DNA of 51,426 nucleotides, taken from positions 1 to 51,426 of the forward strand of contig CANLII010000015.1 of the NCBI GenBank assembly GCA_947491315.1, given 5' to 3'. Below the pieces are notes generated by a model that saw nothing but the letters and a program-made list of their open reading frames with translations, ran no database searches and was not told the origin of the DNA. Origin of the DNA: Ignavibacteria bacterium (GTDB taxonomy: Bacteria; Bacteroidota; Ignavibacteria; Kapaibacteriales; UBA961). Both the position numbers and the translations under genes were made by a program. Shown in pieces: positions 23,616 to 41,587 of the stretch; position 1 is the first letter of the stretch; every line of letters starts with the position of its first letter.

Positions 23616-25811
23616 TCATCTAATGACTGTATATGGCTGATAATATCCTGAATCCATCAATCTGAATGTTTGTGGATATTCTTTTTCATAAGTGGTGTTT
23701 GGTGATGTGCCCGCAGCAACAAAGACGGTCTTCGCGGTAAGTACATGAATCGAACCTTTCTTATCATCACTCGTATGCTCAAACTTCACGGCTTCGATTG
23801 CTCCATTTGAATCCAGCATGCATTCAATCGGACTAAGTTCTTCATAGATACTTATGCCTTCTTCCAAGGCTTCATTTACTTCTTCATGATTGAGTTTATA
23901 TGCGGGTGATTGTTTCAATTGTTTACGATAGATCAAAGTAACACCGCCCCATTCTTTCAGATAGGGAAGAAAATTGGGTATCTGATTAGTGCGCTTTGCT
24001 TCATTTCTCACTTCATGAATGATCTTTCCATGTTCAAAGAATGTCTGTGCGATTACCTTTTCTTCAGCATCATAGGTTACTTCAAAGTAATCCGGAATTT
24101 CTTGAAGCATGGTTTTTGCATGAAGATAAAATTTCTCCACTTGAATCGGATAATATGCAAGGGTTTCTGTAGCGGTGTCAACTGCAGTCAATCCACCACC
24201 AATCACGATAGCTGGTAGTGAAACTTGAAGATTGGCCATTGAATCCATTCTTGCTGCACCTGTCAATTGCAATGCCATCAAGAAATCTGATGCTTTTCTC
24301 AAACCTCTGCTGAAATTATTTTTCATGCGAATGAGTGTTGGTCTTCCTGCACCCGTTGCGAGAGCCACATGCGTAAAACCAAGTTTCCAAGCATCCTCTA
24401 TAGTCAATGTTCCACCGAATCGAACACCATCTAGAATCTTGAAATTCTTTCTTCTTTCGAGCAGCAATTGAAGAATGGTGAGGAAATTCTTATCCCAACG
24501 CGATGTTATGCCATATTCACTCACTCCACCGAATCCTGATATGATTCTCTCATCCAATTCACGCTCAATCGTATCCTTGAATGAAGGAAGCGGATCGCCT
24601 TTCTTTAGATCATAAATATCAAGTGCGGATTCGATTTTTAAACCTTCAACTGCGACGACTGCAAAACCTTCATTGAGCAGATAATGCGAGAGAGTATAGC
24701 CTGCAGGTCCAAGTCCTACAACCAGAACTTTATTTCCATTATATGGTAAAGTATATGGTCTTTTCACATTGAGTGGATTCCATTCCATCAAGAGCGCATA
24801 GAGTTCGAGTCCATCCTTCAGCGAAAGGATATCCGTTAATACCGATGTTTCAATCTTTGGAATATTCACCGGTTCTTGCTTTTGGAAGATACAACCTTTC
24901 ATGCAATCATTGCAGATTCTATGTCCTGTTCCGGCGCACATAGGATTATCTAGCATTACCATTGCAAGTGCTGCAAGAGGATAGCCTTCTCTGCGCAGAT
25001 AATGCATTTCACTGATTTTTTCATCGAGCGGACATCCTTTGGTTTCAACTCCAAGTGGATTCTTCTTTATCAAACCATCCTTCTCATGAATGCCTTTGGA
25101 ACAGGAATCCTTCTCTCGTTCATGACAAATCATGCAATAATCGATTTGCTTCGTGACTTCTCTTCTTGTCCCACGACGATCTGTTAATGCAAATCCATCA
25201 CGCTTCCGATGATGATATGCATCATAGGTTTTAATGCCATCATTATCAGAAACAATTGCATGTTCAAGATGATCGAAATCCAATTTTTTTCCGGTGAATT
25301 CACTCATCCAATCGGATATCATATTCTGCTCTCGCATAGAGAAATACAGAATTTCCGCTTTATCAAGTAAACTTTTTTGTTCCTGTTCTTGTGACATCAA
25401 TGCTATGACAATTGCAGAAAAATCCAACTCCTTATCATTGGTCTTGTCAATAGACAAAGCATGCAACAATTCAGAAAATACTGAATCAATATCATTGATA
25501 ATTTCTTCTCCAAGAGTTTTACCTCTTCTGCGTATCAATGCTTTTTTCGTAAAGTCTGCTTTGGCACGGATAACTAATTGTTCCTTCTGTAATGCTGACT
25601 TTATAGAAGAAAAACCGATTGAATCCGAAATATAATCCTGCAGATATGATTCAACAACAATTGCTGTGTCTATCAATATCTGTGATAAGCGAATTCCAGT
25701 AATATCTGCTGTTTGCAATTCCTGATATGCCACGAATGTATCAGGATTATGTTCTTGCATATAGCTCAGAAATGCAGTGTGATGATGAACTGCGCTGAGT
25801 TGTATATTCAT
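23616..25811 (-). CDS. FAD-dependent pyridine-nucleotide oxidoreductase, GltD-like, apparently truncated at its C-terminus
   Basis: A 731-residue protein. Residues 1-220 are a helical region I do not recognise. A Cys-rich segment follows, typical of GltD-type iron-sulfur domains: CMICHEREKDSC (226-237), GCPLDEKISEM, MCAGTGHRICNDCMKGC (292-307). The FAD-binding VVGLGPAGYTLSHYLL is at 364-379 and the NAD(P)-binding VIGGGLTAVDTATE near 556. The chain ends at VFVAAGTSPNTTY...VIR, before the G-D FAD-contact motif that closes GltD-like reductases. From memory, close relatives are about 1100 residues with a further reductase domain. Its ATG overlaps the preceding stop (TAATG). Electron donor and acceptor are unknown. 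Confidence 0.82.
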   Translation of the reverse strand: MNIQLSAVHHHTAFLSYMQEHNPDTFVAYQELQTADITGIRLSQILIDTAIVVESYLQDYISDSIGFSSIKSALQKEQLVIRAKADFTKKALIRRRGKTLGEEIINDIDSVFSELLHALSIDKTNDKELDFSAIVIALMSQEQEQKSLLDKAEILYFSMREQNMISDWMSEFTGKKLDFDHLEHAIVSDNDGIKTYDAYHHRKRDGFALTDRRGTRREVTKQIDYCMICHEREKDSCSKGIHEKDGLIKKNPLGVETKGCPLDEKISEMHYLRREGYPLAALAMVMLDNPMCAGTGHRICNDCMKGCIFQKQEPVNIPKIETSVLTDILSLKDGLELYALLMEWNPLNVKRPYTLPYNGNKVLVVGLGPAGYTLSHYLLNEGFAVVAVEGLKIESALDIYDLKKGDPLPSFKDTIERELDERIISGFGGVSEYGITSRWDKNFLTILQLLLERRKNFKILDGVRFGGTLTIEDAWKLGFTHVALATGAGRPTLIRMKNNFSRGLRKASDFLMALQLTGAARMDSMANLQVSLPAIVIGGGLTAVDTATETLAYYPIQVEKFYLHAKTMLQEIPDYFEVTYDAEEKVIAQTFFEHGKIIHEVRNEAKRTNQIPNFLPYLKEWGGVTLIYRKQLKQSPAYKLNHEEVNEALEEGISIYEELSPIECMLDSNGAIEAVKFEHTSDDKKGSIHVLTAKTVFVAAGTSPNTTYEKEYPQTFRLMDSGYYQPYTVIR

Positions 25812-26530
25812 TATTTATAATTCACGATTGATTGAACTGAAGTACCTGTTCGAATGAAAAACACACCAAAGGGCTGATCCTGTAAGATGTTTTTCATTTG
25901 ATCCGAAGGGATGTTTTTTGCAATTAGGACACCATTTGATGAATACATGTCAGAAGATTTCATATCATATGCTAGATCATCTTCAATTGAACTTATACCT
26001 TGTGAGCGATAGACAATCAGATGAAAATTTTCTATTGTAATTGGACCAACACCAAATTCATTAGGGAGAATTGTATAACTCTTCTTTATATCGCAATTGA
26101 TTCGGAGAGCAACTCCACCTTTGTCTGTAAACACGATAGAGTCAATGCCCGTTCCCAAAGGATAATCCCATGAGAATTTCATCCATTTTTTGTCAGCTTT
26201 CCATGGAGATACTTGCACCCAGAATGTATCAGCAATGGATAATGGTTCTGTATTTCGAATATCACGATAAGAGAACATGTCAACACTGCTCGAAAAAGAA
26301 CCATCTTTGTTCAGATCCAATATCGCAACGATATGCGCACTATTGAAAGGATGTAGAGGTGGTAACTCTTTTTCACCAAGCGCAGCATCTATACCATCAG
26401 TAGCTCCCTTGACAAATCCAATGATAACCGCAGGTTTTGTACTGGATGTGTTGTCTTCATGAGTAAAATTGAAAAATTGTCCAAAGACCATTGTAGGCAA
26501 TAAAAATATACTCATCAATAAGTACTTCAC
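25811..26530 (-). CDS. Secreted hypothetical protein with degenerate sorting-domain-like C-terminus
   Basis: A 239-residue protein with a signal peptide (residues 1-17, ending VFGQ). The central part (HIVAILDLNKDGSFSSSVD, KWMKFSWDYPLGTG) looks like a beta-rich domain of unknown family. The last 75 residues (IEDDLAYDMKSSDMYSSNGVLI... PFGVFFIRTGTSVQ) resemble a weak, degenerate T9SS-type or FlgD-like end. It starts at GTG, supported by a perfect AGGAGG seven bases upstream. The start of the FAD-oxidoreductase gene overlaps its stop, an odd pairing of an exported protein with a cytosolic redox enzyme. Confidence 0.72.
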   Translation of the reverse strand: MKYLLMSIFLLPTMVFGQFFNFTHEDNTSSTKPAVIIGFVKGATDGIDAALGEKELPPLHPFNSAHIVAILDLNKDGSFSSSVDMFSYRDIRNTEPLSIADTFWVQVSPWKADKKWMKFSWDYPLGTGIDSIVFTDKGGVALRINCDIKKSYTILPNEFGVGPITIENFHLIVYRSQGISSIEDDLAYDMKSSDMYSSNGVLIAKNIPSDQMKNILQDQPFGVFFIRTGTSVQSIVNYK

Positions 26531-26607: not shown

Positions 26608-29600
26608 TTATCTGTTGATGATAATACGCTGTGTTGTAACTACGCCATTGACATTAACTGTCATTGTGTATGTACCAGCCGCAATTTCATCTGTATTGAT
26701 AGCCATTGAGTTGCCATTGAATGTTACATTCTTAACTGTTGAACCGAACATGTCGATAATAGCAACATGTACTGTACCTGCAGTTGCAGTGCGAACATTG
26801 ATTAATGAAGATGTTGGATTTGGATATACTTCAATACCTGCATTATTAGCATCTTGCTTAGCAAGTCTGATAACTGTAGAATTGTGTACCATCAAATGTT
26901 GTGTTGCACTGATTGTTCCAAGAACTGCACCTGTTTTAGCATCGAATGCAGTATATGTGCCATTCAATCCTTGTGCAGTCAATGTCATTGGATATGTAAC
27001 ACCTTGAACGCGAATTGTCATGTCATTGCTATTTGTTGCATATGCGTTGTTTGCAAAGCGAACATCGAACATGTCAGGAGCAATAACCGGAGGTAATTCA
27101 AAACGAGCAGGATTTACAGATCCATTTTCTGATACGCGAAGTGTGTTTGTTCTAGCTTCTTTATCAGCAATTGTGATTGAACCAAGATTCAAATCTGACA
27201 TAGGATTAGCAACAATCTTTGGCAAGCCGGATCCTCTCACACGATAGAAGCCTTCGCCAGTGATTTTGATCCAATAACCTAAACCAGGTACAACTTCTGA
27301 AGTTGCATAGTAACCGCGAGCAGTTGTATAACCATATACCTGATCTTTGATTGCTTCTACTGCACCACTTTGCAATTCATAAGAAATATCGTTCACATTT
27401 GCGCGTGTTGAAGGTGCACCAACTGTATTCCAACCATCATAGAGATACACTCTTTCGGTTGTCTTGCTGAATTCAGGTACTCTTGAACCAATTTGTGTTG
27501 AGTCAATTTTCTCACCAAACTTTACAAAGTAACCAACACCAGGTTGAAGTACTTGCTTCTGCTGATAGGTACCACTTGCAAATGTATAGGGCTCTGTGAT
27601 TGCATTAGGGAATACTGACTTCCAATTAGGATTGGATGGACGCAATGGCAATGACAAGAAATTCCATCCTGATTGTACAACAGGATAATTTGCTGATTGT
27701 GGCAAGCGATATTCAATGATGAATGATTTGATACGAGCATCACGGATTGTGAAGGAACGACCATAATCTCCATCTGGAGTTGCCTCACGCATGTTTACAC
27801 TGAAGATACCACCATTGAGTGTATCACGGAGATACAAATCTGCGCCTTCAGGGAAATCACGAGTATCCCAATTGATAACAACAGGATAGTTATTAGCACC
27901 ATTTGCATTAAAGCGGCAGAGATAGACTAATGTTGTGTCTGAAGTAAAGTCACGAATGTCGCGTGATGTTGAACCTCTTCTGAGGTTTTGACCACTGAAT
28001 GCATCCATTTGGATATCACCAAGACCATTAGGTGCAACTTCGATTCCATTTGCATCTTTGATCCAAGGTGTAAACCAACGAGCAAAGAAACCTGTTGGTG
28101 CGCTTAATGCATCATATGCATATTCACCAAAGAGTGAATCGGGACCATCTGTTGCTCTGTGACCTGTACCAAATACAAGGTTAGTCGTATCGCCAATTAT
28201 TCCTCTGGAGTTGCTTACTGTCAATTTGATGCCTGGATCTAAACCAAATTCAGGTGTCTTTGGATTATTAAAGCTACCTGGTTCAACAGGATTACGTAAG
28301 TGTATAAATGTTACGCGTAATCGTACAGGTGAAACTTTTGCGGATGCTGATGAAACTGTAACATAGCCTGTATAAATACCTGCATATTCTGCATCACCAC
28401 TTCTCAATTCGCCGGTTCTTACAAAGATTCTAAAGCGAATTGGATCTTGTGATTGTACAATTTGATTACGAGCATCTTTCAAGTTTGGAGGAACAGGACC
28501 ACTGATACCATTATCAATAAAGTCAATATCACCATCACGACCAATATTTCTAATTCCCGGTGGAACAAAACCGGGCGTTACAGCCTGGAAGAATAACCAT
28601 GGTGAATCTGAGCGAATATTAAGACCTGTGAGTCGGCTACGAGGTGTGAAGTTATAGAGAATAATGTCTCTGAATGCATCATCACCATTTGTTGATGAAT
28701 CAATCACAATTGGTTTTGTTAATTCCCATACCGAACCATCTGCAAAGTTAGGGTCTTGACGCACTTGGTCTTGACCATTTCCTGCAAAGTCACGGAATGA
28801 AATTTGTGGAACAGCGCCCACATTTACCCAAATCAAACCTGGACGGCTTGGATATTCAGGAAGCAAATCGGAAGTCATGCTTATACCACCAAGACCGATT
28901 GAATCGCGCTTATCTTTACGATATGTTTGATCACGATATGGATTGTCAGCAGCATTGTCTGCAACAAGTGGGAATGGATTTGTATAACCAATGCGAACAT
29001 CATTATATGTCAATGAATCATTGGAGATATACAATGCTGATTTATCAGCACCATTATAGATTGTTGGCTGATTTGTCAATTGTGATTGTGACAATGTAAC
29101 CTTCATGCGAAGGTACATGAGCACTTGATAGCTACCATCTTCTTCTGTAACAGGAAGTGGTTTAGTTGAACGACCTGTGATATACATTCTACGACCATAT
29201 TTTGTCTCGGCACTTAAAGAGCCACGAAAATATACGCCATAGCGAGTTTCATCACTTACATCGTCAAATTCCAATTCAAATCCTTTTGCAAGTGAATTGG
29301 TATCAGATCTTTTTTGACCAGTAAATTGTGCACCAACCGCTTCAAATACACGACCATCATACATTACTGAAAATGTGAATGAATAAATCGGTCCACCACT
29401 AAAGCGTTTGTCAACAACATTTGAAGAATCATACCATAGATTCTTCATAAATACCGGTACTAATACTTCGCGAACGCGATCATCCGCATAACCCAACCAG
29501 ATTCTTCCATCAGAGTATAAATTACCGTTGTAATTATTGTCTCTACCTGTGAGACTTAGCACAGGGATGTCAGCCTTTGGGATTGCAGCAAAAAGGTTCA

Positions 29601-29682
29601 GTGAACCCATTAATGCAATGCACAAGGACAGAAAAAGAAGAGTCGAATTGCGTCTCTTACATTTTGTGTCGGAAGTTTGCAT
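26608..29682 (-). CDS. T9SS-sorted secreted protein (1024 residues)
   Basis: Start 29682 is chosen for GGAG 8 bases upstream; the frame extends to 29706 without support. After a Lys/Arg-rich stretch and hydrophobic signal (LLFLSLCIALMGSLNLFA), residues about 60-190 (VMYDGRVFEAVGAQF... MYLRMKV) look like a cohesin-like beta-sandwich. Two later segments share the pattern GWNxxxxP...PGxGYxxK (LQPGVGYFVKF and VVPGLGYWIKI), typical of proteins in this bacterial group. The final 70 residues form a clear type A sorting domain: EVYPNPTSSLINV, VAIIDMFGSTVKNV, IAAGTYTMTV, ending TTQRIIINR. It should be exported by Sec and T9SS to the surface. Partner and function are unknown. Confidence 0.88.
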   Translation of the reverse strand: MQTSDTKCKRRNSTLLFLSLCIALMGSLNLFAAIPKADIPVLSLTGRDNNYNGNLYSDGRIWLGYADDRVREVLVPVFMKNLWYDSSNVVDKRFSGGPIYSFTFSVMYDGRVFEAVGAQFTGQKRSDTNSLAKGFELEFDDVSDETRYGVYFRGSLSAETKYGRRMYITGRSTKPLPVTEEDGSYQVLMYLRMKVTLSQSQLTNQPTIYNGADKSALYISNDSLTYNDVRIGYTNPFPLVADNAADNPYRDQTYRKDKRDSIGLGGISMTSDLLPEYPSRPGLIWVNVGAVPQISFRDFAGNGQDQVRQDPNFADGSVWELTKPIVIDSSTNGDDAFRDIILYNFTPRSRLTGLNIRSDSPWLFFQAVTPGFVPPGIRNIGRDGDIDFIDNGISGPVPPNLKDARNQIVQSQDPIRFRIFVRTGELRSGDAEYAGIYTGYVTVSSASAKVSPVRLRVTFIHLRNPVEPGSFNNPKTPEFGLDPGIKLTVSNSRGIIGDTTNLVFGTGHRATDGPDSLFGEYAYDALSAPTGFFARWFTPWIKDANGIEVAPNGLGDIQMDAFSGQNLRRGSTSRDIRDFTSDTTLVYLCRFNANGANNYPVVINWDTRDFPEGADLYLRDTLNGGIFSVNMREATPDGDYGRSFTIRDARIKSFIIEYRLPQSANYPVVQSGWNFLSLPLRPSNPNWKSVFPNAITEPYTFASGTYQQKQVLQPGVGYFVKFGEKIDSTQIGSRVPEFSKTTERVYLYDGWNTVGAPSTRANVNDISYELQSGAVEAIKDQVYGYTTARGYYATSEVVPGLGYWIKITGEGFYRVRGSGLPKIVANPMSDLNLGSITIADKEARTNTLRVSENGSVNPARFELPPVIAPDMFDVRFANNAYATNSNDMTIRVQGVTYPMTLTAQGLNGTYTAFDAKTGAVLGTISATQHLMVHNSTVIRLAKQDANNAGIEVYPNPTSSLINVRTATAGTVHVAIIDMFGSTVKNVTFNGNSMAINTDEIAAGTYTMTVNVNGVVTTQRIIINR

Positions 29683-29722
29683 GTGTAACTCCGTTAGATG
29701 ATACATTAAAAATTATAATTTG

Positions 29723-30853
29723 TTATTTACTGTCTAAGTATTGTACGTAATCGTTACCAAGTTTTAAGGCTTTTCTTCTTTTGATAGCCTTCGTTAATTC
29801 ATCATTCGGACAATCCGATTCAATGAATCGACCAAGAATATCATAGAAATCCGTGCATAGACCATTCACATCTTCTGATTCAACTATTGAACTGATAACT
29901 GTATCAGGTTTTGTCATTCTAATAAGTTGTATTTCACTTAGCAATGAATCCATTGTACTCGAACAATCACATGTTGCAGATTTTGTAAAAGTATTCAAAA
30001 AATGATTTGAAGTATCATCAGTAGTTTGTATTTCTACATCGTACTTCACTTTTGCAAATCCGGCAAAACCTCTTTGAATCTTAGTAAAATTCAAAGCATT
30101 TCCATTCTTCGTTGCTATTATATTATTCGTGCTATCAACTTTTATTGACAAAACTTTCAATGAATCAGTGACATCATATAGCAAAGAAACAGTATCGTTT
30201 CCACTAGCTTTCCCAAAAAACAGAGATCTTGAGAATCCATATTTTTTGCTTACTTGATCATAGGATAGTGTATCCTCGATATTTGAATCACCAATTATGG
30301 TAATCTTTGTTTCAACTGAATCAAGTACTCTGTTAGACAAAGTTAGATTTGAATCAATTTCAATATATCTTGGACCTATTCCAAATTCAAAACCTGGATC
30401 GAAAAATGCAATTTTCACATTAGTCGTGTCTGGGCATTTTGAATCAATCCACTCACCTCTCAGGGCTACAAGAGCTCCTATACCAACTAAATTTGGTGAG
30501 TTTTTACCGAGTCCTGTATAGCCAATTATTTCTGTAAAACCCTTTTCAGGATTCTTGAAAAAGAAATTAGCTTGTGGAATAAGACTGCTGATAGTACCTG
30601 TTCTTAGTGCAGCCACTATTCGGATCTTGCTTGGATTATATCGTATGGATATATCATATGCTTGCAAGCTGTCAATGCTTTCCAACTTGGTATCAATTGT
30701 CAAAGTAAATTCATTTGTATTTGCACCCAGACAATAGTTGCTTTCATGTCTGCTATTTAAATCAAATGAAACAGTGCGTGATATTTGACCCCACATTGCC
30801 ATGTTGCCCGCAAATAAAGCGAGCAACATAGCGACATGTGAACATATCTTCAT
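29723..30853 (-). CDS. Secreted protein with cohesin-like domain, no standard sorting tail
   Basis: A 376-residue exported protein with a signal peptide ending in MWGQISR at about residue 23. Residues about 45-150 (FTLTIDTKLESIDSLQAYDISIRYNPSKIRIV) follow the cohesin-type pattern of paired strands with a Y-N-P turn. A central domain of unknown fold follows. The end has LCTDFYDILGRFI, which looks like the core of a T9SS domain, but it then diverges into a Lys/Arg-rich KRRKALKLGNDYVQYLDSK. The usual PNP motif is missing. TTG at 30862 is another start, directly after the upstream stop; ATG at 30853 is preferred. It sits between two T9SS cargo genes on the same strand. Confidence 0.72.
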   Translation of the reverse strand: MKICSHVAMLLALFAGNMAMWGQISRTVSFDLNSRHESNYCLGANTNEFTLTIDTKLESIDSLQAYDISIRYNPSKIRIVAALRTGTISSLIPQANFFFKNPEKGFTEIIGYTGLGKNSPNLVGIGALVALRGEWIDSKCPDTTNVKIAFFDPGFEFGIGPRYIEIDSNLTLSNRVLDSVETKITIIGDSNIEDTLSYDQVSKKYGFSRSLFFGKASGNDTVSLLYDVTDSLKVLSIKVDSTNNIIATKNGNALNFTKIQRGFAGFAKVKYDVEIQTTDDTSNHFLNTFTKSATCDCSSTMDSLLSEIQLIRMTKPDTVISSIVESEDVNGLCTDFYDILGRFIESDCPNDELTKAIKRRKALKLGNDYVQYLDSK

Positions 30854-30862
30854 GCCAATCAA

Positions 30863-33583
30863 CTATCGTTTGATGATAACTGTATTAGCTGATTTCAATC
30901 CATTCTTCATTGTGATTGTGTAAACACCGGATGGCTTTCCTGCGAAAGCATTCAATGTCATTGTTTCTTGATTGATGGAGAATGTACCAATCACCTTACC
31001 ATTTACATCAGAAACTGTCATCATTCCACCTTTGAAATCAGCAGGAATTGATACCATAATTTCTTGATCAAATGGATTAGGATATGCAGCAACTGAACCG
31101 GTTACACCAGATTCTTCGCCGATTATCTCTTTACCAAGATTAACATCATTCACAATCACTTTCTCAGCAATAAGTTCTTCGTCTGAATCAATCTTGATAA
31201 ACGCGATTGGTTCTTTAACGCTAGTAACATAAGGTGCTGCGAAGTGTACTGTATTGTCATCATTCGTAATCATATTACCTGATTCTGAAGAACCAAGTTC
31301 TGAAGTAATGACTTTCCCATTGAATGTAATGGAGAATGCCAATGCTTTATTTGATTTTGCTGTTGCATATACAGGTACGATTTTACCATCATTTGTCATG
31401 ACAGGTGTACCGAATGCGATTGGTGATTTTGATTGACTGCCAGCTACAACTTTACCATATGAAGGAATTGTATCCCACATCCAAGGAAGTGAAGGAACGC
31501 GACCTGCATTATAGTGAAGAATAATCGCTGCATCCAAAGCTGTTGCTTCGAAATAAATCAAACGCAATGGACCCGCATCTGGAGGCAGTGTTGTCAATGT
31601 TTCTAGTGAGTCATAAAGGATGCGAATACCTGTTGTATCCATATCGATTGGACGCTTCCAAACACGAACATCTGTCAAATTATCCCATGAGCGTGAGCTG
31701 TAATAGTAACGACCATTGTGATTCACATCAGCATGATAGTTATTGCCATACTGCAATGTATCTTTACGAAGTGAATCTGGAAGTGCTGCATCATTTACCA
31801 ACCAGCGCATAACCAAACGAGCATCATTAACTGTCACAAAACGATTTTGTGGTAAGCCTGCATGCTTGCGTGTACGGAGTTGTGTAAGATCTGCATCACC
31901 ATCACCCCAAGTAGGAACTACAAAGCGTGGTATGCCACTGAAAAGAATGCGACGACCTTCTGAAGATGAAGCTCCACCACTTGGGCGCCATCCATCTGTC
32001 AAAAGAAGTGAAGAGCGTGATGTTTGAGGTGCATTATATGTGAGACCATTCAAATAGTCTGAATATATCGCAGGATTCATAGTTCCAAGATTTCCTTTCA
32101 CACCTACCGATGCTCCTTTCACATTCACTTCACGTGCTGTTGTCAATGTATTGTTTCCAATATCACCATATGCAAATTCAATTGCACCTGCATAATTGTT
32201 TGGATAACGCTCATCAACACCTTCATAAAACACAGCTTGGAAGTTTGCTACTGAATTTGGTAATGTTCTATCCATGACATTTAAGTTTTTCCACTGAACA
32301 ATCAAGCGACGATTAGGATATGATCCTACAACTACATATGAAATTTCGGAATTCATATAGAAGCCATTTGCTGAAGGTACAGTTGGCTCATTTCCAAAGC
32401 GATACATGTGATCACCCCAGAATGGAGCTACTACATTGAAAGGATATGAAGAACTGTTCAAGAACAATCCTTGTGGATCCCAGTTTACGATTGGAGTGAA
32501 AATTTGTGGATCAGAGAATGTTGTGAAACCGTTCACATTAATCCACATATTTGTTTGTTTTGAACCACCAAATGTAAAGTCAAAATTCATAGCATTAAAG
32601 TCAATTGGATAATATCCATTGTCTCTATCTGAACCAATTTGGAATCTTGAGGTAAAGTCAATTGGACTCATCGGAATGGAGCGCTGATAGGCTTCAAAAC
32701 GAATAGTCTTAAGTGAAGTACCTGATACAGGCCATGATGTGCTCAAATCTTTTGAAGTTGAAGCAGTTGTTTGATCGGACCATGACAAACCATTGATCCA
32801 TTTTGCTTTTTCATCATCATTAATACCTACTGCAGCACCAACTGCATCTGTTGACAAACCAGTGAATGCACCATAAGCAAATTCAAAATCTGAATGCTTA
32901 TTGAAATTCAAAGGATTACGAGATGCATCTCCTGGAAGATTTCTTTCATAAAATGTAACTTGAAAGCTACCTACTCTTCTTTGATCATCTGCATCACCTT
33001 TAACATTGACATTCAAATTCTTCCATTGAATGGTCAATCTTCTTTTCGGTGCTGAACCCCAAACTCTCCAAGTAACTGCAGATGGAGTGAACCCTACTTC
33101 AGTAGCTGTTCGAACCACATGGTCACCCCAGAATGGAGCTACTATCATTGTGTTAACATCACCTTTGAACAATTCAGTAGCATCTTTTGATACTGCTGAA
33201 GTGCTGTTTAAGGCAACGTAGCCATTAGTTGTGATTTGAATATTACTAATGGTATTTCCGGCATAATGAATATCAAAAGGAACATCATTTGTGCCTTGAC
33301 CACCAACTGACAAGGAGGCATCTCCTTCATCATTTGTACCATTGAAAACCACCGGAGTACCACCTGTCAAATCTTGATAAGGAAGTTCTACGCGATATGG
33401 TTTCAAATAATATGAGCTCAAAGAATTTGGCGCAATACCATAATCAATATATAGCTTGCCTGAAACTACTTGTGGAGCATCGAATTCATCAAATACTCGT
33501 TGTGCTGTGGCATACTGAGATGCGGAAGCAAGCAGTAGCAGCGCAGCAAGCAACGATATACTTTTCTTTATAAAATTTCTCAT
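30863..33583 (-). CDS. T9SS-sorted protein with tandem beta-sandwich repeats and dockerin-like segment
   Basis: A 906-residue secreted protein with a signal peptide ending TAQR at 28. Residues 75-300 and 305-550 are a tandem duplication: both contain VAPFWGDH (148-155, 385-392), RRL-[IV]-QWKNLNV (about 181-192, 425-436), FQ-FYE and FAYG. Residues about 580-695 look like a dockerin with a long insertion: RFVTVNDARLVMRWL, then DVNHNGRYYYS, then ALDAAIILHYNAG. A cohesin-like stretch follows (715-825). The end has AYPNPFDQEIMV, VSDVNGKVIG, GVYTITMKNG and VIIKR, a type A T9SS domain. The start has an AAAGGAAAC ribosome-binding site below a stable hairpin. Likely cell-surface; function unknown. Confidence 0.85.
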   Translation of the reverse strand: MRNFIKKSISLLAALLLLASASQYATAQRVFDEFDAPQVVSGKLYIDYGIAPNSLSSYYLKPYRVELPYQDLTGGTPVVFNGTNDEGDASLSVGGQGTNDVPFDIHYAGNTISNIQITTNGYVALNSTSAVSKDATELFKGDVNTMIVAPFWGDHVVRTATEVGFTPSAVTWRVWGSAPKRRLTIQWKNLNVNVKGDADDQRRVGSFQVTFYERNLPGDASRNPLNFNKHSDFEFAYGAFTGLSTDAVGAAVGINDDEKAKWINGLSWSDQTTASTSKDLSTSWPVSGTSLKTIRFEAYQRSIPMSPIDFTSRFQIGSDRDNGYYPIDFNAMNFDFTFGGSKQTNMWINVNGFTTFSDPQIFTPIVNWDPQGLFLNSSSYPFNVVAPFWGDHMYRFGNEPTVPSANGFYMNSEISYVVVGSYPNRRLIVQWKNLNVMDRTLPNSVANFQAVFYEGVDERYPNNYAGAIEFAYGDIGNNTLTTAREVNVKGASVGVKGNLGTMNPAIYSDYLNGLTYNAPQTSRSSLLLTDGWRPSGGASSSEGRRILFSGIPRFVVPTWGDGDADLTQLRTRKHAGLPQNRFVTVNDARLVMRWLVNDAALPDSLRKDTLQYGNNYHADVNHNGRYYYSSRSWDNLTDVRVWKRPIDMDTTGIRILYDSLETLTTLPPDAGPLRLIYFEATALDAAIILHYNAGRVPSLPWMWDTIPSYGKVVAGSQSKSPIAFGTPVMTNDGKIVPVYATAKSNKALAFSITFNGKVITSELGSSESGNMITNDDNTVHFAAPYVTSVKEPIAFIKIDSDEELIAEKVIVNDVNLGKEIIGEESGVTGSVAAYPNPFDQEIMVSIPADFKGGMMTVSDVNGKVIGTFSINQETMTLNAFAGKPSGVYTITMKNGLKSANTVIIKR

Positions 33584-33606
33584 TGTTGTTTCCTTTTTTT
33601 AACGAA

Positions 33607-33636
33607 GTATCCGCCTCCCTTATGAGAGGCGGTACT
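33607..33636 (-). other. Stable RNA hairpin between two T9SS cargo genes
   Basis: CCGCCTC pairs with GAGGCGG (7 GC-rich bp, 8-base loop), extended by AGTA/TACT with one bulge. It lies between the stop at 33648 and the ribosome-binding site of the next gene. On the minus strand no T-run follows (the next bases are TCGTTAAAAAAAGG), so it is not a standard terminator. It may be an mRNA processing or stability element, or an attenuator. Confidence 0.55.
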
Positions 33637-33647
33637 AAGTATTAAAA

Positions 33648-36600
33648 TTATCTTGCTACTACTACATTTCTAATTACGATTTCATTTCCTACAGACAACT
33701 TCACTGTGTAAATACCAGGTGCAACAGGAGTTCCATTGCTATCTTTGGTATTCCATGAAACATTGGATGTTCCAAGACCGAGATCTGTAGAGAATGAGTT
33801 AACTATATTTCCAAGCAAGTTGTATACTTGAACGCTTACATTCTCTCTTGATGAGGTTACTGCAAAGTTCACGGATTCATTTGCTGGATTTGGATTTGCT
33901 TCTGATACAAGTGTCTGACCCATAACTGAAGTCGGTTGATCTTCATTTATGTTACTTGCATGATCATAGGAGATCACGAAAGAATTTATAAAGTCAGGCT
34001 TGATTGTAATCTTGAAGTCATCGCCAGTTGCTTCTGCATCAATCAATGCACTTTTCTTACCTGTACCTGTAGCCATGTCATATTGGAAGTAGTTGAATGA
34101 ACCACCATCCATAATTCTCCATGAACCACCGCTCGGATTGCGTGTTGCATCTGTGCGTGAAGGTACTGTTGACAATTTCCAAGTCAATGTTACTGGTGTT
34201 GCTGGGGATGTATTCCCAAGCTCAGCACCTGACTGGAAACGTGCTTTATACATTGTGCGTGAAGAATCACCTTTAATCGCTGTTGGGAATAGATTGCGAT
34301 GCATACCATTTGTTTTGATGATCGTCCAACGAGCATCGAAAACATCTGTTGGTGGGAATGGAGGTAATTCGAATTCACAATAGTTTGCATCGAGTTTACC
34401 TGCATCAGGCTCTTTTTCACCTGTTGTTGCATTGCGAGCTGTACCGAATTGAAGGTCTTGATAAGCACCTGCATTATTCTGTACACGGATAGTTGTGATG
34501 AAGTCTGTTACATCAGAGACATTTACCTTGAAGGTATAGAATGTTTGAGCATCACCATCATCAGCTTTGATACGGATAGTAACTTTACCATCAGTGATCA
34601 AGCTTGAAGGAATGTCCAAAGGTCCATTTGACTTGATGATAACTTTGTTATTCATTGCTGAAGCTGTATCAACTGCAGTACCATTAATAACAGAAGGTTC
34701 AATTGTCAAATTACCAATCGGAGGATCAATGCTGATAGTAACTGATTCTTTTGCATCTGCTGGAATCTCACGGAGAAGATCAATATCACCTACTGTGATT
34801 GTGTCTTCATAAGCTTGACCATTAGCAATACAACGAATCGCTGGAGACATAATCGCTCTTGGATCATGATTTGTTTCTTCAACTTCAAGATTAATAACTC
34901 TAAGGTCTGTCAATCCACCTGCATCTGTAATGAGAACTGTAATTTTCTCAGCATTTGCACCTTTGCGAGGAGCATCTTTCACGCCAGGAGTACCATAAAG
35001 AAGACCACTCTTAGGATTAATCATCAACCATTTTGGTGTAGTCTTAACATTTGTGAGGTCCCAGTTTCCTGCTTCAGCAAAACAAGGATCCTTAGGCACA
35101 TCATTTCTTGATTCATCTGTATAAATCAATTCAAATGATTGCTCTTGACCAAAGTTTGGATCGAAATATTCAATACGCTTAGTGAAATCAAGAAGTGCTG
35201 GATTATAATCCACATCTTCTTTAGCCATTGGAAGGCTTGTTGTTCTGATTTCAGGAGAGACATTGATAAATACGCGCTTAGTCATGTGAGTAATACCGCT
35301 ATGACCATCATTAACAACGATTGTGATCATTGTATCTGTGTTCAATGCACCATTTACTCTTGCAACTGTTTCTTTTGATGTCATCATTGCGATTGCTTGC
35401 GCTCTCGCAATACGAACATTTAGTTGACCAAAAGTTGTAAAGTCATAACCATTTGGATCTACATTAGTATCAGATGTATTCTTATAAAGATATGAATCAC
35501 CCATCCATGATGGTCTTGTTTCTGACAACTCATCTGTTACTTGATCATCTGAACGAATTGCTTTTGATTCAAATGAATAGGAAGTACGACCATAACGGAA
35601 GTCCCAACCTTCATTTGTAGCAGCGTCAAGATCTTCTTTTTCATCATCTGTTTCAAAATCTACAAAAAAGCGAAGCTTGTCTGTAACGTTTGCAACGAAG
35701 AAGTTTTGATTTGCACCTGCAGCTGCACAATTTGCACTTGTTTGTAATGTGTTTTGGAATACCGGCTGGCTATCAATTACATGAATTGAGAAGCGATAAG
35801 TAATCCTTGTTGCATTACCAAAGTCAACTGTATCTTGATTTGCATAACGAGCATTTTGTGCATCGTATGATTGTGCATGATAATATGAAGGATAGAGATA
35901 GATGAACTTCGATACAACATTCTTTGTGAATGCCAATTCAAGTTCAGCGGCATCTAAGATTGATGTACCCATCAAAGTATTCTTCTGAGCATCTGTCAAA
36001 TTCAAGGAACGGATAGCATCTGTACCTCTATAGTTTGGAGCCCAGTTTTGTGCTGTTACTTGAACATGCTCACCACCTGGAATCACATATGGATTTGTTG
36101 GCTTACCAAACAAAGCTACACGACCTGTAGCACCATAGTATGGATGTGTTGTTGTTCTTTCATTTGACCAAACTGTATCTGCTCTCAACCAACGGCGGAT
36201 ACCAGTAAGTTTTTCTGTACTAGAAGTATCAGCTGTGAATGTACCGTTACCGTTAAGGAACAATGGCATCCATGTGTACTCAAGTTGAGTAAATACATTA
36301 CCGTCTGCATTTGATAGATTCATTGCCCAGCGTGGATCATACATTTTGTTTGAGTCAACTGCTGTGACAACAAAGATTGTATCACGACCAATTTTTTGAC
36401 CTGCAGTTGATGCACGATTATAGCTTACATCTTCATTGACAAATACTTTGTCTTTGAATGATGTAAAGAACAATGGATTAACATTTGGATTTGCAACGCT
36501 AACTGCAGAACCTGTCCATACTGGACCAGGTACTGAGCCATTAATGCGGAAAGAAATACCTTTATTGATAGCTTCATTTACCCCTTCTCTCCAGAGAACA

Positions 36601-39600
36601 GATCTAGAAACTACGCGGATTTGATCACCGGGACGTACAGGAAGTGAATTGTAATTTTCACCTGCATAATATGTTACCTTACCATTTGGAATGGAAGCAG
36701 GCAATGTAGCACGGTTGATATAAGTTACTTTTTCACTACCATAATTATGTGTTCTTTCATCATCTAGTTGCATTTCCCATCTTCTGCTTCCAAGAGCCGC
36801 GCTATCTTCTGAAACAGCATTATCAGCAATGAAAGGAAGAAGTGAGTTTGTACCACCATAGTTAGCCAAACCTTCATAGAAACGGCGAACTCTTGAAGTA
36901 GTACCTGTTCTTTCTGATGAGTCAGCTACAAAATCTACACGACCACGGAGATATTCACGAGGATATACACCGTCATTATCTGTAGTTGCAACGTCTGTCA
37001 TTTGTGACATATTAACACGAACATAGTCACCGGTAGAGTCATTGATAACAAAGAATACTGATTCATTTAATACCAATGGATCATCATTGTTTGTATTGAT
37101 GTCTGCACCGTTATATTCTGCTTTAGCTTCGAGGAACAATGGATATCCAACTGGATGAGTGAACTCACCAACTCTTTGATCTACTGCAAATTCACCTTGA
37201 AGTCTGCGCAATTGCTTCCAAAGAATATTCTCTGTGCCAGTTGCATAGTTTACTGAATCTGTTGCAAATGGATCACGAAGAAGTCTTTTTACAACTTTAC
37301 CAGCTGATTGTGTAGGACCTGCAGGATATGTTCTCAAGTTTGAAGGAATACCTACTGCGAAATCTTCAATTGGAGCCAAACGGCGTACTGAATAATCTGC
37401 AGTCTTGATATCTGTACCTTTGTCAAACATGTCATAGACCATTCCTGACATCAACAATGTATCAGGTACTTGACCAATCAAGATTGGTCTATAGCTATAG
37501 TCCAAACCTGGTCTATTTTGTGAATTTGTCGCATTGTAGTCAAATGGACCTTGTTCACGAAGATCTGTATATGTTGCTTTATTCAAGAAACGAAGATGTG
37601 TTTGTCCATTTCCACGAACAAAGAATGTTTCTTGAATACCACCGCTTGTGAATCCTGGTTGCGCTGTTGGGAGGATTATAGAAACATTTGCTTCTGTACG
37701 ACCCCAATAATTACCACGAAGTGTATCAACTCCACCACTACCTGTACCATAACCACCTGCCAATGTACCTTTTGTGTTTGGTGCATCTGGAAGACGAATC
37801 AAGAAACGAGCATCATTATGATGAATAGCATTACCTGCTGTATGATAACTTGCAAATGGAATTGGACCAACGATTTCACCGTACAATACTGCACCGGCAA
37901 GATCACTTGATGCCACATTTTGACCACTGATCATTGGACCACCGATAACATCTTGCGCTCTACCAATTTTGGAATGAGCAATATTACCTGTTATCAATGA
38001 ACGCTGGAATACAAGTGCCAATGCATAGTTGTCAGAATAGACAGCTGCACCGGTAAATGCTTGATTATTTTGAATACGAACGCGGTTGAAATACAAAGAA
38101 TCTTTTCTGAAGAATCTGTCTTTTACAACACTGTCTAGGATATAAATCGCACCACCAAGTCCAACACCGTTTTCACGAAGTCCGGAAGGTGAAGGATTAG
38201 TTACATAACCTGGGTGATAGCGCTTCACATCAATGAAGTTTGCACCAATTTGTGATGTACCAGTACCCATCAAACGCTCATCAGGATTAATATCCGCTGA
38301 GTTATTGATGAATCTTGTCAACATGCGAACATCAGCAGGAACTGCAGATATTTTCTTATTGTCAAAGATTGAATCATTAGAAACAAATGATTCTAGTTTA
38401 ATTGTACCATCTGATTCTATTGTAAAGTTGTCAGCATCAGAAACAAAAAGACGATCTGATGATGTCAAAGGATTGATCATCGCAATAGCACCACCTGAAC
38501 CATTGATTACTGCATTGTTTTCAAACAATGTACCTTTCACAAGGTTAAGGTCAGCATTCAATGTATAAAGAGCACCACCACCACGAACAAATCTCTTCTC
38601 TTCTACTGTAGGATTGATTCCGATAGAACCAACTCTATTATTGCGGAAGTCTGTACGAACAATCTTTACAACTCTTTGCCATGCAGGAACGGGAGGTTCA
38701 ATACTTGGTAAATGAATTGCAATAGCACCACCGGAGAATCCCGCTAAATTTCTTAAGAAATTAATACTGAATCCGGGGCCATATGATTGCGCCAAAGGAA
38801 GATCATTGATAAATCCACCAGCACCATAAGAAGTCATATTTCTTTTTGTATAAACAGCTCCACCATGTGCTAGTGCTGAGTTATCTTCAAAGTCAATTCT
38901 ACGACCATAGTCTCTGATTCTTGGGAATGGAGAGTCTGAACCACCAATGATTGGTGATGGACGAGGATCTGTATTACCGTCTACATAGATAGCACCACCG
39001 GAACTTGCTCTGTTGTTTTTGAACCTTGTTCCTTGTAATGAGCTACCACGAATTTGCAAACGACCATATGTATTTTCATGAAAAATAGCTCCACCCAATG
39101 CATAGTCTGCATTATTCTTTGGTGAGAGATATGCTGTTTCTGCTGAATTGTTTTCAAATTCACCATTAATAATCATGGAAGTGAATGCACCAATGTACAA
39201 TCCACCACCACGAGCACCTCTAGTACTCAACTTATCTTGAAGATTCAATACTCTATTATTGGTGAACTTGACAAAGTCTTTCTCACCAAAACGAATCTTG
39301 TCATTCAAAGGATTAATTGCATTGATACGGATAGAGTCATTGACGCCGAGACCGATTTCAAGTCTTCTATATTCATCATTAAAACGACCACCAATATACA
39401 TAGCTCCACCAAATGCTTGGTTCTTCCACTCAGTTGGTACGCCATCAGTTGAATCAACTTTTACTTTTGCAGTATCATTGTCTGCAAGAACTTTACGTCC
39501 ACCAATATTAACCGTATCTACATACGCAACTTTTGTGCGGTTATTATCAAAAGTCAAACGACGAACACGACCAAGATATACAGCAATACGAGGATCATCA

Positions 39601-40769
39601 ACTGATTGACGACGTCCATCATTTGTTGATACCAATGGCTCGCTTGATGGAAGCCCATCTGTATCAAGCATATCTAGTGCAATAATACTGTCATTTTCTC
39701 TGATTACTGATCCGTCAGGATTAGTAATATTAGGGTTTTTATCTGATTGATAGAATGCAAGATTCAAACCTGTTGTATCAGGATATGCGCCAACACCATA
39801 TGGTGCTTGCATCATATTAACAGCACCACCACGGAAGCGTGCCATGTTATTTATGAACTTACAATCTACAAGCCATGTACGAGCTGAGAATGATGACAAA
39901 GCACCACCCGCACCATTTGACATCTTGTTAATTTCTCTGTTCAAAGCGATATGAGCTGTTTTAGCAACACCAGTCAAATTCAAAGTATCATACAAATAGC
40001 GATTATCTACTGTAGTATCCTTGCGGAAATCTTTGAATGTAACATTTCTGAAATATGCAGCACGAGCACCTGGCAATACGATGATATGACCCCACTCGCG
40101 TGAGTAGTCATTTACCGCTTGGCCACGGAATACGATTGGTGCCTGAGTAATGTTAGGTGTATTACCACCTCTTCTCTTCCATGGTTGGAAGCGAACAACA
40201 TCATCATTTTCAAAAAGGCGGGATGCCATGAACATGATCGCACGCTCAGGTGAAATTACTCTACCACCTGAAACGAGACCTCTCTCGACAACATCTACCG
40301 TATTACCCAAATTGGAAACACCGGTCATATTGCCGGATGCATTCTCATTGAGTCTTACATTGAAAATCACATTGCGCTTTCCATCTGCAATGCTCAATTC
40401 AGATTTGGTTCCGATTGAAACGACACTATTCCCTGTATAATAAGGACTGTCATTAAAATCATCACCGGCCGCTGGAGCTGTAGTATTGTATGTTGCCGAC
40501 ATAAATCCGTCAGCAATGATACGACCACCGACTGAGTCGATCATCCTACCATTATCCAAAAACACAACTTCCGTTCCCGGCTCTATAAGCAGAGTACCGG
40601 CAATCATAAGAGTACCGTTAATCTGGTAAATAGAGTCCTTCAAGAAGATACGCACATCATTTGGTGCGATTCTTCCGGAAACTTGTACGAGCGGCTTTTG
40701 TGCATAACTGGTGCCAGCCATCAGCAATAGTGCGAATAGCATGGTACCCAAGCGAAGCAAACGTCGCAT
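33648..40769 (-). CDS. Giant T9SS-sorted beta-helix (Pmp-like repeat) surface protein, 2373 residues
   Basis: Start 40769 follows a perfect GGAGG; a longer frame reaches 40823. The signal peptide ends TSYAQK at 23. Residues 55-90 (IEPGTEVVFLDNGRMIDSVGGRIIADG) open a right-handed beta-helix. Between about 285 and 945 it carries chlamydial Pmp-type repeats: FxNN paired with GGA[IVL], for example FINN-GGAV, FKNN-GGAI, FEDN-GGAV, FENN-GGAI. Long beta-rich regions follow, with an Ig-like cadherin module near 1905-1930 (WLMINPKSGLLYGTPG). The last 85 residues (ANPNPANESVNF, VQVYNLLGNIV, GTPVAPGIYTVKL, NVVVAR) are a type A/FlgD-like T9SS tail. It is the first gene of the surface-protein block and is probably an adhesin or surface scaffold. 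Confidence 0.92.
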   Translation of the reverse strand: MRRLLRLGTMLFALLLMAGTSYAQKPLVQVSGRIAPNDVRIFLKDSIYQINGTLMIAGTLLIEPGTEVVFLDNGRMIDSVGGRIIADGFMSATYNTTAPAAGDDFNDSPYYTGNSVVSIGTKSELSIADGKRNVIFNVRLNENASGNMTGVSNLGNTVDVVERGLVSGGRVISPERAIMFMASRLFENDDVVRFQPWKRRGGNTPNITQAPIVFRGQAVNDYSREWGHIIVLPGARAAYFRNVTFKDFRKDTTVDNRYLYDTLNLTGVAKTAHIALNREINKMSNGAGGALSSFSARTWLVDCKFINNMARFRGGAVNMMQAPYGVGAYPDTTGLNLAFYQSDKNPNITNPDGSVIRENDSIIALDMLDTDGLPSSEPLVSTNDGRRQSVDDPRIAVYLGRVRRLTFDNNRTKVAYVDTVNIGGRKVLADNDTAKVKVDSTDGVPTEWKNQAFGGAMYIGGRFNDEYRRLEIGLGVNDSIRINAINPLNDKIRFGEKDFVKFTNNRVLNLQDKLSTRGARGGGLYIGAFTSMIINGEFENNSAETAYLSPKNNADYALGGAIFHENTYGRLQIRGSSLQGTRFKNNRASSGGAIYVDGNTDPRPSPIIGGSDSPFPRIRDYGRRIDFEDNSALAHGGAVYTKRNMTSYGAGGFINDLPLAQSYGPGFSINFLRNLAGFSGGAIAIHLPSIEPPVPAWQRVVKIVRTDFRNNRVGSIGINPTVEEKRFVRGGGALYTLNADLNLVKGTLFENNAVINGSGGAIAMINPLTSSDRLFVSDADNFTIESDGTIKLESFVSNDSIFDNKKISAVPADVRMLTRFINNSADINPDERLMGTGTSQIGANFIDVKRYHPGYVTNPSPSGLRENGVGLGGAIYILDSVVKDRFFRKDSLYFNRVRIQNNQAFTGAAVYSDNYALALVFQRSLITGNIAHSKIGRAQDVIGGPMISGQNVASSDLAGAVLYGEIVGPIPFASYHTAGNAIHHNDARFLIRLPDAPNTKGTLAGGYGTGSGGVDTLRGNYWGRTEANVSIILPTAQPGFTSGGIQETFFVRGNGQTHLRFLNKATYTDLREQGPFDYNATNSQNRPGLDYSYRPILIGQVPDTLLMSGMVYDMFDKGTDIKTADYSVRRLAPIEDFAVGIPSNLRTYPAGPTQSAGKVVKRLLRDPFATDSVNYATGTENILWKQLRRLQGEFAVDQRVGEFTHPVGYPLFLEAKAEYNGADINTNNDDPLVLNESVFFVINDSTGDYVRVNMSQMTDVATTDNDGVYPREYLRGRVDFVADSSERTGTTSRVRRFYEGLANYGGTNSLLPFIADNAVSEDSAALGSRRWEMQLDDERTHNYGSEKVTYINRATLPASIPNGKVTYYAGENYNSLPVRPGDQIRVVSRSVLWREGVNEAINKGISFRINGSVPGPVWTGSAVSVANPNVNPLFFTSFKDKVFVNEDVSYNRASTAGQKIGRDTIFVVTAVDSNKMYDPRWAMNLSNADGNVFTQLEYTWMPLFLNGNGTFTADTSSTEKLTGIRRWLRADTVWSNERTTTHPYYGATGRVALFGKPTNPYVIPGGEHVQVTAQNWAPNYRGTDAIRSLNLTDAQKNTLMGTSILDAAELELAFTKNVVSKFIYLYPSYYHAQSYDAQNARYANQDTVDFGNATRITYRFSIHVIDSQPVFQNTLQTSANCAAAGANQNFFVANVTDKLRFFVDFETDDEKEDLDAATNEGWDFRYGRTSYSFESKAIRSDDQVTDELSETRPSWMGDSYLYKNTSDTNVDPNGYDFTTFGQLNVRIARAQAIAMMTSKETVARVNGALNTDTMITIVVNDGHSGITHMTKRVFINVSPEIRTTSLPMAKEDVDYNPALLDFTKRIEYFDPNFGQEQSFELIYTDESRNDVPKDPCFAEAGNWDLTNVKTTPKWLMINPKSGLLYGTPGVKDAPRKGANAEKITVLITDAGGLTDLRVINLEVEETNHDPRAIMSPAIRCIANGQAYEDTITVGDIDLLREIPADAKESVTISIDPPIGNLTIEPSVINGTAVDTASAMNNKVIIKSNGPLDIPSSLITDGKVTIRIKADDGDAQTFYTFKVNVSDVTDFITTIRVQNNAGAYQDLQFGTARNATTGEKEPDAGKLDANYCEFELPPFPPTDVFDARWTIIKTNGMHRNLFPTAIKGDSSRTMYKARFQSGAELGNTSPATPVTLTWKLSTVPSRTDATRNPSGGSWRIMDGGSFNYFQYDMATGTGKKSALIDAEATGDDFKITIKPDFINSFVISYDHASNINEDQPTSVMGQTLVSEANPNPANESVNFAVTSSRENVSVQVYNLLGNIVNSFSTDLGLGTSNVSWNTKDSNGTPVAPGIYTVKLSVGNEIVIRNVVVAR

Positions 40770-40861
40770 AATACCTCCGTTTGTTAAATAATAACTTAAA
40801 ACTGTATTGTCAAATTTTATCATAGTTAGGGCGCAAAGACATTAATATCAAATAGTCATAA

Positions 40862-41587
40862 TCAATTTTCATGCCAACCAAGACGGGCTAAACCCATTTT
40901 TGCCTCTGTTGTATATTCTGAGCCAGAATTTTTATCAGTTAAACCTTTTAGAAGAGCAATTGCTTTCTCTTTTGCTGAAGTTGATCCACCGGCTGATGCC
41001 TTTTCATAATTTAATGCAGCAAAGAGAACATATCTTTCATACAGAGGTCCATCCTTTGAACCTGCAGCAGCTTCATACAATGAAGCGGCTTCTTCAAAAT
41101 TATTTGCTTCTTCTTTACAAGCAGCCAATCCGGCTTTCCCACCTGCGCTCACAGTTGCATCTTTGCTTCCAGAGGCTGTTTCAAAATATGGCATTGCTTC
41201 AGAGAATTTGCCAAGATTCATGAGTGATGTACCTGCATACAATGCTGCAAATGAACCAGCAGATGTCCCGCCATATTCACTTTCGATTGCTTTCAGACCA
41301 ATTACCTTGCCACCACGAATTGATCTTGCAGGATCGCCATCCAATGCTTTTTGGAATTGACCTGACTCATAATAAGAGGAAATTCTTGACAAAGCTGTCA
41401 TAGCTTCATCATTGCTTGTCTCTTGCATTCCTGTATAGAAATAATATCCAAGACCAATTGCTAGTACAGCAATCAAAGCAAAACCTATATTCTTGATTTT
41501 ACCAATCAGAACATCTTGTTCTTGCTCTGTTTCGCGTACATTCCAATCACTTTCATTGGATTCGATCATTTTTTCTGTTTCTGACAT
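40862..41587 (-). CDS. Membrane-anchored tetratricopeptide-repeat protein (YfgM-like)
   Basis: A 241-residue protein: an acidic cytosolic N-terminus (1-30), one transmembrane helix (about 33-50, IGFALIAVLAIGLGYYFY), and a C-terminal TPR region (about 60-240) with repeated pattern A-x-x-Y-x-G-x-x-x-x-x-x-G-x-F-x-x-A (YAGTSLMNLGKFSEAMPYFETA, AACKEEANNFEEAASLYEAA). This layout matches TPR_21/YfgM-like proteins, which sit in the inner membrane facing the periplasm and contact SecYEG and chaperones. Function here is unproved. It lies 35 bases after tRNA-Arg on the same strand with no terminator between, so it may be co-transcribed with the tRNA. Confidence 0.82.
   Translation of the reverse strand: MSETEKMIESNESDWNVRETEQEQDVLIGKIKNIGFALIAVLAIGLGYYFYTGMQETSNDEAMTALSRISSYYESGQFQKALDGDPARSIRGGKVIGLKAIESEYGGTSAGSFAALYAGTSLMNLGKFSEAMPYFETASGSKDATVSAGGKAGLAACKEEANNFEEAASLYEAAAGSKDGPLYERYVLFAALNYEKASAGGSTSAKEKAIALLKGLTDKNSGSEYTTEAKMGLARLGWHEN

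Follow-up and report, generated by a model that had tools for sequence, protein, structure and literature searches.

In solved cohesin-dockerin complexes, helices 1 and 3 of the dockerin rest on the 8-3-6-5 face of the cohesin, and the group 1 dockerins of R. flavefaciens combine an atypical second calcium site with a single binding face (PMC5429695). Cohesins and dockerins outside cellulosomes have been described from archaea and from other bacteria (PMC9012536), and for the archaeal proteins of Archaeoglobus and ANME a non-cellulase role is accepted (PMC9012536, citing Peer et al. 2009). A cellulosome-like complex with a CTD-bearing scaffoldin has been inferred for Ca. Stygibacter (Cloacimonadota) (PMC8542988), and the S-layer proteins TfsA and TfsB of Tannerella forsythia are T9SS cargo (PMC8869499).

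The locus that we describe here resembles the clostridial and ruminococcal cellulosome pairs in having a cohesin fold and a dockerin fold with two EF-hand motifs, and its best structural matches are the ScaC cohesin of R. flavefaciens (4uyq/4uyp) and group 1 dockerins (5m2s/5m2o). It differs from those pairs in that it has no enzymes and no multi-cohesin scaffoldin, its calcium loops are much longer, its proteins are exported by the T9SS, and the pair is found in one strictly kept operon. Like the archaeal proteins, it places cohesin and dockerin outside cellulose breakdown, probably for surface attachment (PMC9012536); however, the archaeal proteins vary strongly between close relatives, whereas the pair here is fixed in one operon through the order. 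Cohesin-dockerin parts are combined with T9SS-type C-terminal anchoring here as in Ca. Stygibacter, although in that organism the complex includes hydrolases with dockerins and a large scaffoldin with several cohesins and a CBM, and the operon has neither. TfsA and TfsB are large T9SS-exported proteins that coat the cell, as we propose for the proteins of this locus. We know of no cohesin-dockerin joint in the TfsA/TfsB S-layer.

The cluster lies on the minus strand of contig C15 in a genome of 2.30 Mb, within a window of 51,426 nucleotides (the whole stretch of DNA that was analyzed). Related MAGs carry the labels Kapabacteria, Kapaibacterium, Ignavibacteria or Chlorobiota OPB56, and the NCBI taxonomy places Kapaibacterium in Bacteroidota, Eximiradiia. 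In order of transcription, the cluster encodes a TPR protein of 241 aa and then proteins of 2391, 906, 379, 1032 and 239 aa, these last five being secreted, with intergenic gaps of about 38, 64, 9, 16 and 77 bases if the ATG start of the 379-aa gene is used, and the six genes together look like one transcription unit. A preliminary description made from this DNA had recognized four same-strand neighboring genes for secreted proteins, and its coordinates proved correct, with signal peptides visible by inspection in the 2391-, 906-, 379- and 1032-aa proteins. Its starts for the 2391-, 379- and 1032-aa genes are also better than those of the open reading frames, because they lie directly before the signal peptides and are shared with the starts in relatives. 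The genes and their parts are as follows (coordinates in the window, strand, feature; residues numbered by open reading frame).

40862..41587, minus, first gene of the cluster: 241-aa membrane-anchored TPR protein, TPR_21/YfgM-like (TPR_21 26.9 bits, cut-off 25.5)
33648-40823, minus, 2391-aa open reading frame; likely start at 40769 (about 2373 aa), judged from the signal peptide
30863-33583, minus, 906-aa open reading frame: signal peptide and two NIDO-like domains, followed by the dockerin, a beta-rich module and a T9SS domain
32684..33406, minus, additional domain at residues about 60-300 of the 906-aa protein, NIDO-like by sequence resemblance only (a gap in every other family of alignment A2)
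31934..32656, minus, NIDO-like domain of the 906-aa protein with the VNGF..APFWGDH motif, residues 310-550 (alignment A6)
31448..31930, minus, predicted dockerin-fold module of the 906-aa protein, residues 552-712 (AF2 model and VIA)
31823..31897, minus, enlarged calcium loop 1, residues 563-587 (D563-x-D565-x-T567 ... D587; D563 and D587 in 71/71 sequences; length 23-28)
31532..31729, minus, enlarged calcium loop 2, residues 619-684 (D619-x-N621-x-N623-G ... D684; D619, G624 and D684 in 71/71; length 45-100)
31100..31468, minus, beta-rich module that follows the dockerin, at residues about 706-828 (no cohesin support)
30869..31084, minus, T9SS type A domain at residues 834-905 of the 906-aa protein (TIGR04183 28.4 bits, cut-off 23)
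29723-30862, minus, open reading frame of 379 aa with a TTG start, or 376 aa with the ATG at 30853: signal peptide, then the cohesin, a second Ig-like domain and a C-terminal domain that is degenerate
30323..30781, minus, predicted cohesin module of the 379-aa protein, residues 28-180 (AF2 model and VIA structural alignment)
29918..30307, minus, second Ig-like beta-sandwich, at residues about 186-315 of the 379-aa protein (AF2 strands 187-315; 3kpt_A Z 10.6 over 186-315)
26608-29706, minus, 1032-aa open reading frame, or 1024 aa with the ATG at 29682: signal peptide and N-terminal beta module, followed by two GWN..S repeats and a T9SS domain (alignment A3)
28912..29577, minus, N-terminal module of the 1032-aa protein, possibly cohesin-like, residues 44-265 (weak sequence hints)
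26617..26829, minus, T9SS type A domain at residues 960-1030 of the 1032-aa protein (Por_Secre_tail 43.9 bits; TIGR04183 40.6 bits)
25811..26530, minus, 239-aa secreted protein, with which the conserved cluster ends in many relatives

The two outer genes belong to the cluster in relatives as well: the TPR gene, whose product resembles YfgM, an ancillary Sec subunit, adjoins the 2391-type gene in most of them and keeps its position, and homologues of the 239-aa protein, which has no Pfam match, lie downstream of the 1032-type gene in many loci. The 2391-aa protein combines Pmp-like beta-helix repeats with a He_PIG-like Ig domain and a T9SS/FlgD-type C-terminal domain, and its scores (Chlam_PMP, PF02415, 32.5 bits against a cut-off of 20.6; FlgD_ig 31.5; Por_Secre_tail 27.2; TIGR04183 33.5) agree with the Pmp-like beta-helix noticed earlier. 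We rejected a chlamydial-type Pmp autotransporter, since this C-terminus is of the T9SS/FlgD type and has no autotransporter barrel; Pfam (E<=1) gave no autotransporter match for the protein.

That three of the four proteins end in T9SS type A domains, as was also first seen by eye, is confirmed by TIGR04183 matches over cut-off in the 2391-, 906- and 1032-aa proteins. Given that the genome holds 77 TIGR04183 matches and the T9SS channel gene sprA (SprA_N 140.9 bits, contig C2), export by this route is to be expected and is not remarkable on its own. The window's 379-aa protein matches neither TIGR04183 nor Por_Secre_tail, and its export and attachment are therefore less certain. Por_Secre_tail was found in 19 of the 31 members of its family (E up to 1), the window protein not being among them, and the proteins of two relatives exceed the TIGR04183 cut-off (37.5 bits at L049, 31.0 bits at L044); from these comparisons, the domain has probably been lost or blurred in the window's genus.

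The N-terminal module of the 379-aa protein is predicted to have the nine-stranded jelly-roll fold of a cohesin. In an AF2 model of the protein (pLDDT 87), this module aligns by VIA with the cohesin 4uyq_A at Z 15.6 (rmsd 2.4, with 138 of 143 residues aligned), and the best 24 structural matches listed for the model are all cohesins. A profile built from the N-terminal part of the family (A7) had only two matches among 177,635 PDB sequences, both of them cohesins, at E 0.0095. Pfam Cohesin (PF00963) gives no match over cut-off on the window protein, and matches 8 of the 31 family members at E<=1 (best 2.7e-5). The strongest single item for reading this protein and its neighbor as a pair is a locus in another family of the class (L167), where the gene at the same position is called by Pfam Cohesin with 47.8 bits (cut-off 24.1) and stands beside a dockerin gene. 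The 379 profile gives no match at L167, which suggests that what is conserved at this position is the cohesin fold more than its sequence; in some of the genomes that keep the gene order, homologues of the 379-aa protein are only 14-20% identical. The Y-D/N-P motif aligns residue 70 with Asp39 of the C. thermocellum cohesin, which contacts the dockerin (PMC5772552); in 70 of 74 sequences, residue 70 is D, N or E. Taken together, the modeled fold and the matches in relatives bear out the cohesin that had been proposed for this protein in its 376-residue form. A search of the genome with the A7 profile found no other cohesins of this type.

The dockerin of the 906-aa protein is likewise supported by a model, in which residues 552-712 (71 sequences, pLDDT 86.3, pTM 0.81) adopt the loop-helix, helix, loop-helix arrangement of a dockerin with its two-fold repeat. 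When this model was re-aligned by VIA to 178 chains, all 7 matches listed were dockerins, the best being 5m2s_B with Z 7.8 and rmsd 2.4 (75 of 79 residues, 28% identity). Because a Z of 7.8 is middling, the case leans equally on sequence motifs: in both EF-hand motifs (D-x-[DN]-x-[DNS] ... D), all 71 sequences have D at positions 1 and 12, positions 3 and 5 are nearly always D/N and S/T or N/S/D, and position 18 of helix 1 is arginine or lysine in 66. The calcium loops depart from those of a standard dockerin, with 23-28 and 45-100 residues between the first and last D in place of 12. Both loops carry inserts at fixed places, and the insert of loop 2 forms a beta hairpin in the AF2 model.

This enlargement of both loops explains why the Pfam model Dockerin_1 (PF00404) misses the module, with no match in the window or its genome and none at the operon locus in 61 relatives, 36 of which have other dockerins over cut-off. 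The dockerin profile found only chance matches to prefoldins among PDB sequences, and Foldseek alone gave no significant match for the model (E>3), dockerins being scattered among its chance matches. Despite the missing Pfam match, the fold and the conservation of the EF-hands uphold the dockerin-like segment of the preliminary description. At the loop ends, the recognition positions read V/A-N in one half and E-Y in the other, and this difference between the halves suggests that the module would prefer a single binding orientation over the dual mode of enzyme dockerins.

Homologues of the 906-aa protein occur in 54 of 61 relatives (E<=0.001), some of them found only through shared CTD or NIDO-like segments. 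Its NIDO-like domain at residues 310-550 has invariant N, G, W, G and H, and Pfam NIDO matches 7 of 30 members (best E 1.6e-5). As judged from the alignment, the duplication of this domain appears confined to the window's own family (f1). Two further cohesin-like stretches had been proposed by eye, and they fared differently. The one within the 906-aa protein itself (residues about 706-828) we rejected, since it has no match among PDB sequences and hhalign relates it to the 379 cohesin at 0.2%. The N-terminus of the 1032-aa protein (1024 residues from its ATG) keeps a hint that is only suggestive of a cohesin and does not amount to confirmation: its only PDB sequence match is a cohesin at E=1, 1 of 30 members has a cohesin match at E 0.061, and hhalign to A7 gives a probability of 19%.

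The preliminary description had named, among the results that would refute it, relatives in which the genes are not kept together, and across the order the genes do stay together. The order 2391-906-379-1032 is kept in essentially every readable locus, one family excepted. Exactly one open reading frame of 330-500 aa lies between the 906- and 1032-type genes in 60 of the 65 loci of the order that have both, and the remaining 5 have a gap of matching size with a match to the 379 family, the start of the frame overlapping the 906 gene. In 58 of 59 loci, the 906 gene has the 2391-type gene as its immediate upstream neighbor, and the cluster is intact at L167, L168 and L169, which come from two further families of the class. 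Since this order persists where the 379-aa homologues have diverged as far as noted above, it goes beyond chance. In 296 sampled genomes of the phylum, the dockerin profile had 24 matches, all inside the class, and none in the sampled genomes outside it. The only family of the order without the operon is f8 (G020, G028, G035, G041, G046, G051, G055 and G059); these eight genomes lack the set, given that only generic T9SS-domain matches were found there, and they do have many T9SS-domain proteins. Other absences in the order fall in broken or incomplete genomes.

Several further observations concern the surroundings of the operon. A single 2.16-Mb contig (BPHJ01000001.1, KatS3mg039) holds two complete copies that diverge in sequence (L131 and L150; also L056 and L071), both placed near a contig end. 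Downstream of the operon, most lineages (L107, L089, L141, L087) have a heptosyltransferase-like gene along with genes for a GT2-like glycosyltransferase and a small outer-membrane-like protein, and in the window other genes take the place of this set; on these assignments by eye, the set may point to a glycan anchor or to glycosylation. The operon is also present in public MAGs labeled Bradyrhizobiaceae, Armatimonadetes, Melioribacter roseus and Chloroherpeton thalassium (L101, L154, L095, L112), which are probably misnamed or contaminated.

Cohesins and dockerins also occur elsewhere in this genome and in its relatives. On contig C11 of the window's genome (G000), a second diverged dockerin (L051, 560-1042, minus strand) lies at the C-terminus of a protein that is at least 1781 aa long, is cut by the contig end and has choice-of-anchor I, Big_5 and Calx-beta domains, with no catalytic domain. 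It is possible that this protein is a second client of the 379 cohesin; no protein of its type was found in the relatives searched. Two more proteins, on C22 (L184:2341-6000:-) and C25 (L185:2818-6747:-), combine HYDIN/ASH-type Ig domains with PF00963-like modules (25.5 bits, over cut-off, in L184 and 19.8 bits in L185), and the L184 protein has a T9SS domain at its end. In relatives, one to three canonical dockerins are carried by other secreted proteins. Some of these dockerin proteins are of about 465 aa (L186:1326-2720:+, L189:1192-2583:-), and others are T9SS proteins of 2042-2145 aa with laminin-G-like lectin domains and a PF00404 match followed by a weak cohesin match (L187:4816-10944:+, L188:1708-8145:+).

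We think it fairly probable that the locus encodes the core of a non-cellulosomal, T9SS-exported surface assembly, in which the dockerin of the 906-aa protein binds the cohesin of the 379-aa protein outside the cell. The proteins would cross the inner membrane by Sec, possibly with help from the TPR/YfgM-like protein, and the outer membrane by the T9SS, and would then be attached outside the cell. There, the dockerin would fold around two calcium ions and bind the cohesin through the usual strand 8-3-6-5 face, so that the NIDO-like, Pmp-like beta-helix and GWN-repeat proteins would be linked in a stable coat or scaffold that depends on calcium and has no enzymatic part, to which the 2391- and 1032-aa proteins would also belong. 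The self-assembling scaffold suggested earlier thus survives in part: cohesin and dockerin do lie on neighboring genes among T9SS-exported proteins, an arrangement kept throughout the order, but the additional cohesin at the C-terminal end of the 906-aa protein drops out. Covariation between dockerin and cohesin was highest for residue 617 of the 906-aa protein and residue 68 of the 379-aa protein, the latter aligned with the cohesin contact Asn37 (z 7.9 versus 4.9-5.5 in shuffles). With about three independent changes on the tree, this comparison is underpowered and not significant, and we therefore make no claim of covariation.

The presence of other candidate partners in the genome, namely the PF00963-like modules of L184 and L185 and the diverged dockerin on C11, counts against this pairing. 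The 906 dockerin might instead dock on its own module at 706-828, on the 1032 N-terminus, which may be cohesin-like, or on other T9SS proteins with cohesin-like modules, the 379 cohesin then receiving other dockerin proteins. A dockerin followed by a beta-sandwich is a recurring arrangement, with PF00404 preceding the weak cohesin match in the relatives' 2042-2145 aa proteins, and it would suit such a scheme. Nevertheless, the 906 and 379 genes are inseparable neighbors across the order and beyond, the 706-828 module shows no cohesin signal, and the genome's second dockerin protein was not found in the relatives searched, and we regard docking elsewhere as rather unlikely. Alternatively, the two modules may not bind each other at all, the dockerin acting as a structural, calcium-stabilized linker and the cohesin as a structural Ig-like domain, with the genes kept together for equal amounts or a shared export step. 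The long inserts in both calcium loops and the strong divergence of the 379 cohesin would fit this explanation, but both EF-hand motifs are invariant at their key positions, and because the complementary folds of a known binding pair adjoin wherever the operon occurs, we find a purely structural role unlikely.

A cellulosome-like enzyme scaffold, in which the cohesin would recruit dockerin-bearing hydrolases, is suggested by the fold pair itself, which is that of cellulosomes, and by the T9SS-anchored cellulosome-like systems inferred for Cloacimonadota (PMC8542988). However, the 379-aa protein has a single cohesin, the cluster contains no enzyme, and the genome has no PF00404 match, its other diverged dockerin belonging to a choice-of-anchor/Ig protein that has no catalytic domain. 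In relatives, the dockerin proteins examined carry lectin-like domains or nothing recognized. Neither a dockerin-bearing enzyme nor a multi-cohesin scaffoldin was found in the genome, and we rejected a cellulosome; a scaffold for enzymes here seems very improbable.

A surface assembly held by the 906-379 pair would give new context to a known pair of folds. In the papers searched on Kapabacteria, the T9SS and cohesins or dockerins, all open without subscription, we found no account of the operon and none of a dockerin whose two calcium loops both carry inserts. As far as these papers go, the class-wide operon with its cohesin-dockerin pair and the dockerin form with double loop inserts appear to be new, the fold pair itself being already known. 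Dockerin modules of this form are probably undercounted, since the standard Pfam model misses them. Non-cellulosomal cohesin-dockerin pairs have so far been mostly scattered, variable domains of unclear purpose, and here one neighboring pair is fixed in a core surface operon, order-wide and beyond, with no link to polysaccharide enzymes. A defined pair of proteins thereby makes the purpose of non-cellulosomal cohesins and dockerins testable.

The operon also gives a first point of access to the cell surface of the Kapabacteria, a lineage that is uncultured. More tentatively, and as a proposal that we would sooner doubt than assert, it could encode a class-wide, lineage-defining Kapabacteria cell coat, exported by the T9SS from a vertically inherited operon and held by a cohesin-dockerin joint with a new form of dockerin. 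If so, the operon would specify a core structure of the envelope and not an enzyme scaffold.
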